59,104 nt of DNA, taken from the NCBI RefSeq assembly GCF_000415985.1, contig NZ_KE356561.1:51490-110593 (forward strand), read 5' to 3'. Position numbers and translations under genes: made by a program. Shown one piece after another: positions 2,900 through 57,681 of this stretch (position 1 is the stretch's first letter; each line of letters opens with the position of its first letter). Under the pieces are notes generated by a model. That model saw only the letters and a program-made list of their open reading frames with translations, did no database searches and was not told where the DNA came from. This DNA is from Haloquadratum walsbyi J07HQW2 (GTDB lineage Archaea; Halobacteriota; Halobacteria; Halobacteriales; Haloferacaceae).

Positions 2900-3304
2900 G
2901 ACCCGAATACCAACAGGACCAGCGATGTTTAGCGCCGTTTTCAACGAGGCTGGACGATATCGTATCGTTATATCCTAGCGTAGAGTAGCTACGGCGAGGC
3001 TTGAACGACTCAACATAATGTCTCGGAAAGGCGACCTTCGTCTTTCCACCTCAACCGTTCCGGAGCGATAGTGCCGCGTGCCTGTATGGGGAGTGTAGAC
3101 TGTGAGTTGATGCGCATAGTGAGTGCCCACTGAGTGTGACGGGCGCGGACGAGCTAGCCGGTTACTCTGTTGGAGAGGGGCGGGGTTTGTGTTTGTGGGG
3201 GTTTCGGCAGAAAATCGCGATACTGCGCGGTGATGAGCGCAATACAGTTATACGCAGTTCAAGCGTCTATGCGAGTGGAAAGCACGGTTGCTTTTCGAGG
3301 CATT
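2900..3304. other. Intergenic stretch without recognised gene
   Basis: No convincing coding frame was found on either strand. Short frames lack homology features. The segment ends with an AT-richer patch (aatacagttatacgc, about 3240-3254) that may be promoter DNA for the small gene at 3305. Confidence 0.5.
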
Positions 3305-3499
3305 ATGAGTGGAAACACCGACAGTGTCCACCTCTCCGAGGCTGGTCACAAGAAGAACGGAAAACCCGAAATCGAAGATGAGAACCCGACCCACATTGCC
3401 CGTCGCTACGATGGGTGGTTCACCGAACTTCGCTCCCTCAATCCCGAGGAACTCCGTCGCCTGGACGGTAACGTAGGACGCCGAGCAACGGAAGAGTAA
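3305..3499 (+). CDS. Small acidic hypothetical protein
   Basis: This is a 64-residue frame with typical haloarchaeal charge (IEDENPTHIARRYDGW, LNPEELRRLDGN). The ATG at 3305 is preferred over upstream alternative starts because the upstream part is Cys/Gly-rich and uncharacteristic. A TATA-like patch lies about 55 bases upstream. It converges with the zinc-finger gene, with the stops two bases apart. The family was not recognised. Confidence 0.55.
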   Translation: MSGNTDSVHLSEAGHKKNGKPEIEDENPTHIARRYDGWFTELRSLNPEELRRLDGNVGRRATEE

Positions 3500-12448: not shown

Positions 12449-12693
12449 ATGCTGAAACTCTATCGACTCCCCGGCTGTCCCTACTGTGTAAAGGTTGAAC
12501 GTACGCTAGAGTATCTCGATCTCGACTACAAATCGCATACTGTCCTCCCATTCCGGTTCCTCCGGTTCGAAGTGAAATCGCTAAGTGGTCAGTCCGGAGT
12601 ACCGGTGCTTGTCGACCCCGAACACGGGATCAAGTCAAGGGAATGGCAGAGAGCGACGACATCGTCACCCATCTTGAGAACACGTACGCCTGA
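12449..12693 (+). pseudogene. Glutaredoxin-like protein, frameshifted
   Basis: The frame MLKLYRLPGCPYCVKVERTL has the CPYC redox motif of glutaredoxin/GST N-terminal folds, followed by the cis-proline strand SGVPVLVDPEHG. A single frameshift at about 12630-12645 moves the expected ending (MAESDDIVTHLENTYA) to another frame. About 80 residues, the usual length, are recovered once the shift is corrected. A thiol-disulfide role next to a mercuric reductase remnant would make sense, but that link is inferred. Confidence 0.7.
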
Positions 12694-17504: not shown

Positions 17505-17741
17505 TTAGCTATCGGGTTCTGCTACTTCCCAGAAATGCACCTTTCCAATATCTCGGCTAGTCACTTTCCCAGCCTCTTGAAGTGATTTGAGCCGGTCGTA
17601 TGCCGTTGTATAGGGACACTCAAGAGCTTCAGATACCTCGGTCGTCCCACAACCATCTAATTTGTGTATGGTTGATAGAAAATCTTCATCGCTATACTTC
17701 TTATCGAACTCGCCTGAATCTGTTCGGGTATCGTTTGGCAT
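17505..17741 (-). CDS. Small winged-helix regulator inside tnpB element
   Basis: This 78-residue protein is a single winged helix: DEDFLSTIHKLDGCGTTEVS, then ALECPYTTAYDRLKSLQEAG and a wing ending GKVHFWEV. It resembles the small MarR-like haloarchaeal regulators. It is encoded divergently from tnpB, and the 92-base gap between the two starts holds AT-rich promoter-like DNA (attgtatttataaaggtag, about 17741-17759). Its position within the element ends suggests it either controls tnpB or is a passenger. Both are inferred. Confidence 0.7.
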   Translation of the reverse strand: MPNDTRTDSGEFDKKYSDEDFLSTIHKLDGCGTTEVSEALECPYTTAYDRLKSLQEAGKVTSRDIGKVHFWEVAEPDS

Positions 17742-17833: not shown

Positions 17834-19117
17834 ATGGCGACCGTAATACGCACGTTACAGGCGACTCTTGTGCCACCGACAAGCCACAAGCAAGCCAGCC
17901 TGCAACACTCGGTGGAAACTTATCGCCATGCCCTACAGGAAGCGTTTCAGGCCGATTGTGACACCAAAACGGCGGTTAATGAAGTGGTCACACCATACGA
18001 CCTGAGCAGTTATGCTAAAGACGCCCTGAAAAATTATGTTCCTGATCTGGTTGATGAGGCTGATGAGTTGGATGAAAGCCACCCAGTGAGATATACTGGA
18101 CGTGGGTTGACACTTGACCACGATCCCGACCGTCAAAATAGTTTCTGCTGGCGGGTTCCAAAAGCCCAATCAGCAGAAGGGTCGCCGTTCTTGATTCCAC
18201 TCCGAATCAGTCCAGCACAGCGATCTCTTTGGGATGGAACACTGAACGGTGAGATTGAACCCAACCAGTTTCAGCTACAACGGGACGGTGAAACATGGTC
18301 GTTGCATGTCGGCGTTGACATTGACGTGCCTGACTCAACGTATGATTCAGATAGTGACGGGATAACAACAGTTGGGTTTGATATTGGAGAGGCTCACCTG
18401 CTAGCAGGCTGTGCCTGCACAGACGGTTCTCCGACTGACCCACTGCTGATTACCGGCGGTCACGCCCGACAACTCCGCAAGGGAAAGGAGATGTTTACTA
18501 CACTCTCACGGTTACAGGAACGTGATGTCGCCCAATGGCGCATTGATGAGCGGTTTAATCACTATCAGAACGCCCTGACTGATATTGTCGAAAAGGCAAG
18601 TCGGCAGGCTGTCGATTATGCCCAGCAATTCGACAAGCCGGTGGTTGTGTTGGAGCAGTTGCACAGTATCAGAGAAAACTTAGATTATGGCAAGTGGATG
18701 AACTGAACCGGCGACTGCATAACTGGGCGTTCAGACGGCTTCAAAACGCTATCGAACGGAAAGCGGTTGAGGCTGGTATGCCGGTCGCATATGTACATCC
18801 ACACTACACAAGCCAAACCTGCCATGCCTGCAACCATATCGGATCGAGGAACAGCGACGAATTTCGGTGCACAAATGATGACTGTTGGGTTGGGTAACAG
18901 AATATCACGCAGACATTAACGCTGCGATAAACATAGCCGAGAGGCTCGATCCGTGGGGTGAGAGCCTGCCAGTGAAATCGGCAGGCGATGACATGACATG
19001 TCACGGAATGGGAGCGGTTGTGACACCGCCATGACTCCGACCGGACAGAGCCAATCACAGCAACAGCAAATGACGCTCGGTCGATATGTAGAGCCAGAAC
19101 CCACTGCCAGCGATTAA
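17834..19117 (+). pseudogene. tnpB: tnpB disrupted by three 5-bp tandem duplications
   Basis: The frame starts at 17834 (ATVIRTLQATLVPPTSHKQA). RuvC acids are present in context: GFDIGEAHLLAG, VVLEQLHSIREN and, after correction, HADINAAINIAE. A zinc finger (TSQTCHACNHIG, FRCTNDDC) is also there. Three tandem 5-bp repeats each shift the frame: TGAAC at 18699-18708, TTGGG at 18885-18894 and ACATG at 18991-19000. Deleting one unit of each restores a single 422-residue TnpB ending DPWGESLPVKSAGDD...PTASD at 19117. Because 3 x 5 = 15, the final frame is the original one, but the present gene has stops at 18704-18706 and 18895-18897. Apart from this it looks undecayed, so inactivation is probably recent. 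Confidence 0.85.
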
Positions 19118-43211: not shown

Positions 43212-43440
43212 TGGATGCTTCTAAGATTTCGAGATATGGTAGATAATCAGTGGCAACGTTCAGCAGCTGTATGTGAAATATGAGGACGATACAAGGGCGA
43301 ACGAAAAAATAACTGGAACAGATAGATGTGTAGATCTTGCTGTAACGGATTCTGATCGACCTGAGACTCCTACGCCACTTCCAATCGCTGTTGACTCACC
43401 AAACGGTGGAGAATCTGTTTACGGAGAATCGAGGAGAAAG

Positions 43441-43459
43441 CCTCGCGCTTCAGCGCGGG
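43441..43459. repeat. Left hairpin of the 43.4-45.0 kb tnpB element
   Basis: cctcgcgc ttca gcgcggg is the same hairpin sequence as at 44932-44951 after tnpB. A 63-codon frame ahead of it (43273-43464) ends in the hairpin and may be the tail of an older element. Confidence 0.55.
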
Positions 43460-43594
43460 AATGAATCCGACGAACCCTCCACAGTCCACAGTCCACCGCC
43501 TGATAACACGGCAGGATATTCCACGCTGTGGCAATACCCATCCCATACCATTAACTAGGAATACTGTCAGAACGATAGATACGATACGATACGT

Positions 43595-44891
43595 ATGGCA
43601 AAACAGGTTGTCACGCGCACCTATACTGCTTCCATTCGGAATCAGTCACGGGTGTCCGACGATCTTGATGCCCTTGGGTTCGCAGCCTCGAAACTCTGGA
43701 ACGTCGGACGGTGGACGTGTAGTCGCATCTGGGGTGAAATCGGTCACATCCCGAACCACACCGAACTCACCGCGTACCTCAAGAATCACGAGCGCTACGA
43801 TGACCTGCATTCGCAGTCAAGTCAGCGAGTGCTTCAAGAACTCGCTCTCGCTGAAGCGTTCCGTGGGTGGTACGGCAAACGACGCAACGGAGACGTGAGA
43901 GCGAACCCGCCCGGCTACCGCAAACGTAAGTGGTGACGAACACCCACGGAGCACGGTGACGTTCAAAGCCGCTGGCTTCAAACTCGATACCCAGTACAAC
44001 CGCGTCCGGCTCTCTCAAGGCGCCAACCTCAAGAACTATTGGTCGGACTTCATCCTCTGTACATTCCACACTCGCCCCGACGTTGACCTCTCCACTGTAG
44101 AGGCCGTCCAGCAAGTGAAAGCAGTGTGGACAGGCGACGAATGGGAACTTCGCTTCGTCTGTCAAGTGGAGATTGAGGTATCTGAGTCGCCCGGCGAGAA
44201 GACCGTCGGTGTTGATCTCGGTATTAAAAATTTTGCCACGCTCGCCTACGAGGACGGTCACAGCGAGCTGTACCCGCTCAATTGCTTGAAACAGGACGAC
44301 TATTACTTCAGCAAACGGATTGCTCGGTGTGACGACTCACACTCTGAGCAAGCCACCCGGCTGAACCAGAAGAAGTCGGAGCGCCGCACTCACTACTTCC
44401 ACGCGCTCTCGAAGCACATTGTTGAACGGTGTGTTGAGGAGGGCGTTGGAACTATCGTGGTCGGCAATCTCTCCGACATCCGTGTGGATGAGAAGACCGA
44501 TGAGGCAAAAACTGGGGTAGGCATGGAAAACCTCGATCTCCACTCGTGGGCGTTTGACCGGTTCACGAAGCTGCTCACCTACAAAGTAGAGACGGAAGGC
44601 ATCACGGTTGAGCAGGAGTCTGAGCGCAATACGTCGAAGTCGAAGTCGTGTTCGTGTTGCAGCCGCAAGCGGGATGGGAACCGCGTTGAACGCGGGTTGT
44701 ACGTCTGCGATACGTGCGGTACAGTGGCGAACGGGGATGTAAACGGTGCTGAGAACATTCGACAGAAAGTATCTCCGAGTTCACCGAATCTGTCGGTGAA
44801 TAGGAGTAACGGCTGGTTGGTACAGCCATCGACGTTCCTGTTTGACAAGGAGACTGGTGCGTTTGCACCTCAAGAACGGGTTAGATCGTAA
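43595..44891 (+). pseudogene. tnpB: tnpB, one frameshift
   Basis: The N-terminal frame 43595-43936 (VVTRTYTASIRNQSRVSDDL, ASKLWNVGRWTCSRI) breaks in RKRKW. The remainder continues in another frame to 44891. One inserted base near 43929 explains it. RuvC segments are VGVDLGIKNFATLAYE, IVVGNLSDIRVDE and NGDVNGAENIRQ. A zinc finger (CSCCSRKRDG, YVCDTCG) is present. In the second RuvC segment an Asn (VGNL) stands where related proteins have an acid, so catalysis may have been lost as well as the frame. Confidence 0.85.
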
Positions 44892-44931
44892 ACCACAATG
44901 TCCCAACTCAGCGGTGCGGTGCCGTGGGAAT

Positions 44932-44951
44932 CCTCGCGCTTCAGCGCGGGG
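44932..44951. repeat. Right-end hairpin of tnpB element
   Basis: cctcgcgc ttca gcgcgggg lies 40 bases after the tnpB stop and is followed by gaggatgtca, the same tail type as after the 19140 hairpin. Confidence 0.6.
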
Positions 44952-44969
44952 AGGATGTCAAGTCAGCAT

Positions 44970-56694: not shown

Positions 56695-57681
56695 AACTGC
56701 TAACTTCTGCGCCACTTTGACCACCATTTTCGGGGTCTACATCGGTGGTATTAGATGAGTCCACGACTGGTGTGTAGCGACCTGTCACATCTCCAGATGT
56801 CGGAACTGTTGCAAGTTCGGTCCATTCAGATCCGTCACCCCGAAGGACATGTCCACCGTGTGTCACAGCGACAAGTGTGTCACCAATCGTCCCAAGCCAA
56901 GCACAGTCACTATTTCATCAGCGCACGGAATTACAATTCGTTCAACCGATTCACCGTGGACATCAACAAGTTGTGGGCGAGCTTCAGGCTCGTTCCACGT
57001 TGAGGAGTTTGCCATCGCGCTGGCAGCGTATATTACTCCGTCGTGTTCGTGTACAGCCCGGAAATACGGCTGTTCGATTGAGGTATCGAGACGGGTCCAA
57101 GACTGACCAGGGTCAGAGCTGCGATACAGTCCCCGCCCTGTCGCAGCAACGTACTCACCGGAACCGACGACGTGGAGTTCGTGAATATCATTGGCGACGC
57201 TTTCGTGACGCTCAAACCAGGTCTCACCGCTATCCTCGCTGCAGTGAATTCCCCCGACCTCAACACCCACGACAATCCGCGATGACACACCGGGATGACC
57301 AGGGTCGACATGAACATCGCGTATCTGCGCAAGGTTCTCGTGGCGTGGCAGTCGCCACTCCCCACGCGAGGGGAGCCTCTGGAGACCATCACACTCCTCC
57401 CAGGTCTCATCATCTGCCGGTACCGTGGTATAAACAGCTGCGGGACGGGTGCCGGCAAACAGTCTGCCGACCCGTGTTGCCCCAACAGGATATACTTGCT
57501 CTCGTGGGACCTCAAGATTCTTTCACTCACCGTCCAATCGACGGGACAACCCTGTCTGTGTTGCTGCAAATATTCCCCTGATAGCCTCGAATTGAGTCAA
57601 TCTCATCACACGACGTCCTGAGAACTTGTTTCGGTGTCGCACTGCTACTGTCTGTTGGGAGATAATAGACACCATCATCGC
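56695..57681 (-). pseudogene. BNR/Asp-box beta-propeller protein, degraded
   Basis: The start MYIGSDDGVYYLPTDSSSAT at 57681 is followed by IFAATQTGLSRRLDGE with a stop, then GRLFAGTRPAAVYTTVPADD. Next come LPSRGEWRLPRHENLAQIRD, VGGIHCSEDSGETWFERH and GRGLYRSSDPGQSWTRLD. S-D-x-G-x-x-W Asp boxes are typical of sialidase/YCF48-like propellers. At least two frame breaks and one stop occur, and the C-terminal HGGHVLRGDGSEWTEL lies in yet another frame. Such haloarchaeal propeller proteins are of unknown function. Confidence 0.7.

Follow-up and report, generated by a model that had tools for sequence, protein, structure and literature searches.

In the haloarchaeon Haloquadratum walsbyi J07HQW2, a decayed tnpB gene contains three tandem duplications of 5 bp, which probably reflect a recent mutation process, biased towards this lineage, whose products are perfect tandem duplications of 5-7 bp (most often 5 bp) that survive in unconstrained DNA. 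The gene lies in a 59,104-nucleotide stretch of this genome (the window). We will call the genome G000; it belongs to the same genus as Haloquadratum walsbyi C23. The process very likely acts across the whole genome and is not peculiar to tnpB. We suggest more tentatively that the duplications arise when staggered ends are filled in and rejoined.

Three duplications in a decayed tnpB gene

The tnpB relic and its duplications, all on the forward strand, are:

17834..19117, + strand: tnpB relic (IS605/IS1341-type OrfB) in three frames, recognized from its open reading frames, a Pfam domain, and 79% DNA identity to a paralogue, L002
18699..18708, + strand: TGAAC tandem duplication; a private +5 insertion with no flanking microhomology, absent from L002 and from seven intact homologues
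18885..18894 (period-5 run 18884-18895), + strand: TTGGG tandem duplication; a private +5 insertion with 2 nt of microhomology, absent from L002 and from seven intact homologues
18991-19000 (period-5 run 18988-19000), + strand: ACATG/ATGAC tandem duplication; a +5 insertion with 3 nt of microhomology, present in L002 and absent from seven outgroup tnpB genes

An IS605-type tnpB has decayed here: where an intact gene of this type has one frame, 17834-19117 has three. The open reading frame at 17834-18706 stops just past the frame shift that the TGAAC duplication starts, and the one at 18694-18897 stops just past TTGGGTTGGG. The second piece (P0002) matches the Cas12f1-like_TNB domain in Pfam (PF07282; 50.8 bits with a cut-off of 26.3). 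This C-terminal zinc-ribbon/TNB domain is present in the paralogue P0003 as well. The first piece, taken alone, has no Pfam match, and its protein is 58-65% identical to those of intact haloarchaeal TnpB genes. The relic aligns to full-length TnpB over the RuvC region (as protein for the first piece and as DNA for the 3' part), and its putative catalytic residues were identified by eye. Domain and homologue identity therefore agree with a first-pass annotation of the window, which had called the gene TnpB. The genome has about 50 tnpB matches, many of them broken, and the window gene is an ordinary member of the IS605/IS1341 tnpB pseudogenes of haloarchaea, with no difference from them.

The first-pass annotation had reported that TGAAC, TTGGG, and ACATG are each repeated in tandem, as we also find, and that removing one unit of each restores a TnpB of 422 residues. 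Indeed, subtracting 15 bases from the interval that starts at 17834 and ends with the TAA at 19115-19117 leaves 422 codons plus the stop. However, perfect tandem 5-mers occur by chance slightly less than once per kb in G000 DNA (94 in 115 kb), so the tandem 5-mers alone are weak evidence, and their status as insertions rests on alignment. The nearest relative in our multiple alignment is L002, which is in the same genome, and the outgroup consists of seven intact tnpB genes from Halovenus, Salinibaculum, Halospeciosus, Halolamina, Natrinema, and Halobacterium. Each duplication proved to be a 5-base insertion relative to the seven homologues. The prediction that homologues would lack the extra bases thus held for the intact genes, but not for L002, which has the ACATG duplication. 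Because L002 has ACATG only, this duplication is not of the same age as TGAAC and TTGGG, and the three are not one event. To judge from the alignment, ACATG is older than the split of the two tnpB copies or has passed between them by conversion.

Three duplications in a 1.3-kb relic are unremarkable at the rate that we measured, as each kb has an excess of about 0.85 in non-coding DNA and of 1.6 in TnpB-like DNA. (Other triplets of 5-bp duplications within 310 nt number 24, versus 12.6 under a uniform null.) Furthermore, a survey of tnpB relics against their nearest relatives, which the annotation had proposed, found 9 private 5-bp insertions, all of them tandem duplications, and 1 private 4-bp insertion. 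In the same survey, private 4-bp deletions were frequent (12).

Short tandem duplications across the genome

For each size, we compared the number of perfect tandem duplications to that expected under an order-3 Markov null; a repeated context contributed one count only. The sampled stretches amount to about 460 kb of G000 (115 kb non-coding and 343 kb in open reading frames), 400 kb from each of two congeners (G012 and G010), and less from other genomes; G004, G005, G006, G015, and E. coli had too little non-coding DNA for a firm comparison. In the non-coding DNA of G000, duplications of 5 bp (192 observed, 94 expected), 6 bp (87 and 22), and 7 bp (21 and 6) were over-represented, those of 4 bp barely so (369 and 342), and those of 8 bp not at all (2 and 2.6). 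Nor was there any excess of 10-bp tandem duplications in the sampled G000 DNA. This size range bears out the earlier opinion that random slippage is an inadequate explanation.

In open reading frames, we found no excess of the sizes that shift the frame (298 observed and 282 expected at 5 bp; 19 and 17 at 7 bp). This implies that the duplications are real mutations that selection has purged from coding DNA, and not sequencing artefacts. They are known from one assembly of G000, but an assembly or sequencing artefact should affect coding DNA equally, and about 290 extra 5-bp duplications would then be expected in the 343 kb of open reading frames, where the observed excess is about 16. We consider an artefact the least credible of the alternatives. 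As a separate observation, G000, G010, and G012 all have an excess of 6-bp tandem duplications, which extends to coding DNA, where duplications of this size keep the frame.

The excess extends beyond tnpB. After masking detectable IS605-related DNA with 400-bp margins, we still found 156 non-coding 5-bp duplications, versus 87 expected. Indels between repeated G000 sequences point to the same sizes: 17 of 25 5-bp indels, 14 of 29 6-bp indels, and 4 of 5 7-bp indels were tandem, versus 0 of 7 4-bp indels. At frameshift junctions identified by protein homology, G000 had net +5 as its commonest class, with 24/75 junctions, most of them in IS605 genes; the corresponding figures in two congeners were 2/28 and 5/45. 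(We have withdrawn a comparison in which 5-bp duplications were equally common at the frameshift junctions of tnpB, 15/45, and of other genes, 11/33. By Pfam, a number of these "other" genes proved to be TnpB of other subfamilies or TnpA, and the equal-rate reading no longer stands.)

The process also appears to be recent and biased towards this lineage. Tandem 5-mers with one mismatch are not in excess (185/200, 204/197, and 183/201, observed over expected, versus 134/68 for perfect ones), so the 5-bp duplications look recent. The 5-bp excess in the two congeners reaches about one third of the density in G000, and we detected none in the small sample from E. coli. In comparisons to relatives that are at least 85% identical, G000 had seven insertions of 5-7 bp (five of them tandem) and the other genomes had zero.

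Possible origins of the duplications

Our preferred explanation, fill-in, is that DNA ends with a short stagger of about 5-7 nt would form without strong sequence preference, a polymerase would fill them, and rejoining of the filled ends would leave the overhang copied in tandem. We favor this over slippage because roughly half of the excess has an extension of 0 and hence no microhomology. Fill-in and rejoining may account for most events, although we hold this step with less than even confidence.

Several observations weigh against fill-in as a full account. Duplications in non-coding DNA are about twice as dense within IS605 zones as outside them; this may reflect weaker constraint or ascertainment, and it leaves room for a contribution that is specific to the relics. 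Extensions of at least 3 nt are over-represented (about 14 versus 1.4), which makes some of the events slippage-like. That ACATG is shared with a paralogue of only 79% identity fits poorly with a purely recent process. G012 and G010 have a milder excess whose mode is 6 bp, and a single fixed stagger cannot explain all of these genomes. Finally, we did not find Ku in G000, so there is no sign of classical end joining to account for the rejoining step. (G000 does have FEN1 and NucS, both of about normal length.)

The main rival is replication slippage beyond the range of mismatch repair, to which we give a low but appreciable probability. MutS and MutL would correct insertion loops of 1-4 nt while loops of at least 5 nt escape, which would yield duplications of 5-7 bp in unconstrained DNA, and loss of a MutS1 paralogue could widen the escape to 5-nt loops. 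The size range does begin between 4 and 5, and the reported limit for loop binding by MutS is four nucleotides (PMC8235422). Slippage-like extensions are enriched, as noted above. Furthermore, one of the two mutS1 genes of G000 has a one-base deletion in its ABC ATPase domain (G000:C1 around 2456744; L275:2245); this gene is whole in 16/16 congeners, so that G000 is the only one of 17 genomes of the genus with a frameshifted copy. In contrast, slippage does not account for the half of the excess that lacks microhomology. A defect in mismatch repair should also raise the frequency of ±1 frameshifts, which is not raised in G000 (20/75 junctions, versus 27/45 in G010), and deletion of mutS or mutL in Halobacterium had no mutator effect, the mutation rate being unaffected (PMC2816208). 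Because the mutS1 lesion is a single base and dN/dS is still low, it is either very recent or a sequence error. The association between the loss of mutS1 and the duplications is a correlation only, and we treat it as a lead.

The first-pass annotation had offered two candidate causes, and neither fared well. One was staggered cutting by a TnpB-type nuclease, guided by RNA, at tnpB genes or transposon sites. The many tnpB matches in the genome and the denser IS605 zones would suit it, but the 5-bp excess is also seen outside those zones, and two unrelated genes in the window are affected (see below). A TAM-guided nuclease should also leave a motif next to its sites, and we found no motif or base preference in the 8 bases that flank the duplications to the left and right. 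TnpB can hardly be the cause; staggered-end fill-in with some other cause may be at work. The other candidate was footprints of excised mobile elements with 5-bp target duplications. Target duplications of 5, 8, and 10 bp are common in Halobacterium, and one study raises footprints as a possibility (PMC3119063). However, footprints should also come in classes of 8 and 10 bp, neither of which is in excess, and the 6- and 7-bp classes are present. In about 460 kb we found no recently amplified element with 5-bp target duplications and consistent ends, and no Ku was found that could seal blunt excision sites. This makes footprints highly improbable.

We also considered the mismatch endonuclease EndoMS/NucS as the source of 5-nt staggered ends. 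A NucS cut leaves a 5-nt overhang in which the mismatch is central (PMC8228993), and G000 has a full-length nucS frame. The two copies of a duplication should then differ at their centre, but tandems with a central mismatch are not in excess (204 observed, 197 expected), and nucS is also found in congeners without a strong 5-bp signal. NucS is thus a quite improbable source.

It is plausible, though less likely than not, that in this lineage, where we found no Ku-type end joining, a mutator has recently arisen that is specific for 5-bp tandem duplications independent of homology. Losing one MutS1 paralogue, or gaining another source of 5-nt staggered ends, might have brought this about. A known system close to this one is the formation of de novo duplications by topoisomerase II (signature ID17, and top2-FY,RG in yeast), in which a staggered end is filled in and rejoined in yeast and human (PMC11477040). 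As in that system, tandem duplications form in G000 without a pre-existing repeat, which is the case for about half of the excess, and top2-FY,RG yields some 5-nt events. In contrast, the topoisomerase II system is eukaryotic, makes mainly 2-4 bp duplications, and depends on non-homologous end joining (PMC11477040), while no Ku was found in G000.

Among haloarchaea, Haloquadratum walsbyi strains are described as differing mainly through indels and mobile elements, with most IS605 transposons broken (PMC3119063). That work concerns the same genus group as G000 and shares with it the broken IS605 transposons; it covers repeat-mediated deletions and indels of at least 20 bp, and 5-7-bp tandem duplications fall below that cut-off. 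The spontaneous mutation spectrum of Haloferax volcanii, likewise a halophilic archaeon with prevalent indels, is summarized as unusual and indel-rich (Mackwan 2007, as cited in PMC2816208). Compared to that summary, G000 is distinguished by its mode of 5 bp and by the half of its excess without microhomology. In the literature that we searched, which had little subscription content, short tandem duplications in haloarchaea were not the subject of any paper. If the process is genome-wide, then it represents a sharply bounded, lineage-biased indel signature in an archaeon and a way in which genes are broken there, and it offers a handle on how archaea without Ku rejoin ends. The edge between 4 and 5 bp is a testable link to mismatch repair.

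Other affected genes and the surroundings of tnpB

Three other genes in the window contain short tandem duplications:

12630..12639, + strand: glutaredoxin-like gene (Pfam Glutaredoxin) frameshifted by a TCAAG tandem duplication; the Natronomonas homologue (63% identity) has one copy of TCAAG
56892..56901, - strand: CCAAG tandem duplication in a beta-propeller-like gene; the sole indel in 601 bp at 94% identity to G001 (L207)
43461..44891, + strand: second tnpB of the window, 92% identical to a copy in Hqr. walsbyi C23 (aligned over 43416-44961)

The second tnpB has several duplications of 5-7 bp that are absent from the C23 copy: one of 7 bp near 43490, CCCAT at about 43537-43546, CTCGCT at about 43841-43852, and GTCGAA near 44633. 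In a further tnpB subfamily (L164:16482-17650 and L163:14600-15900), several 5-6-bp duplications break the gene within about 1 kb.

A scan of viral contigs found no relatives. A small HTH-like gene lies divergently upstream of tnpB, on the minus strand, both in the window (17505-17741) and at the paralogue (L002:1218-1472), and it is included in the homology between the two loci. The paralogue lies between two copies of a TrkA-like gene (L002:366-1025 and 2939-3433), as if it had been inserted with its neighbour duplicated.
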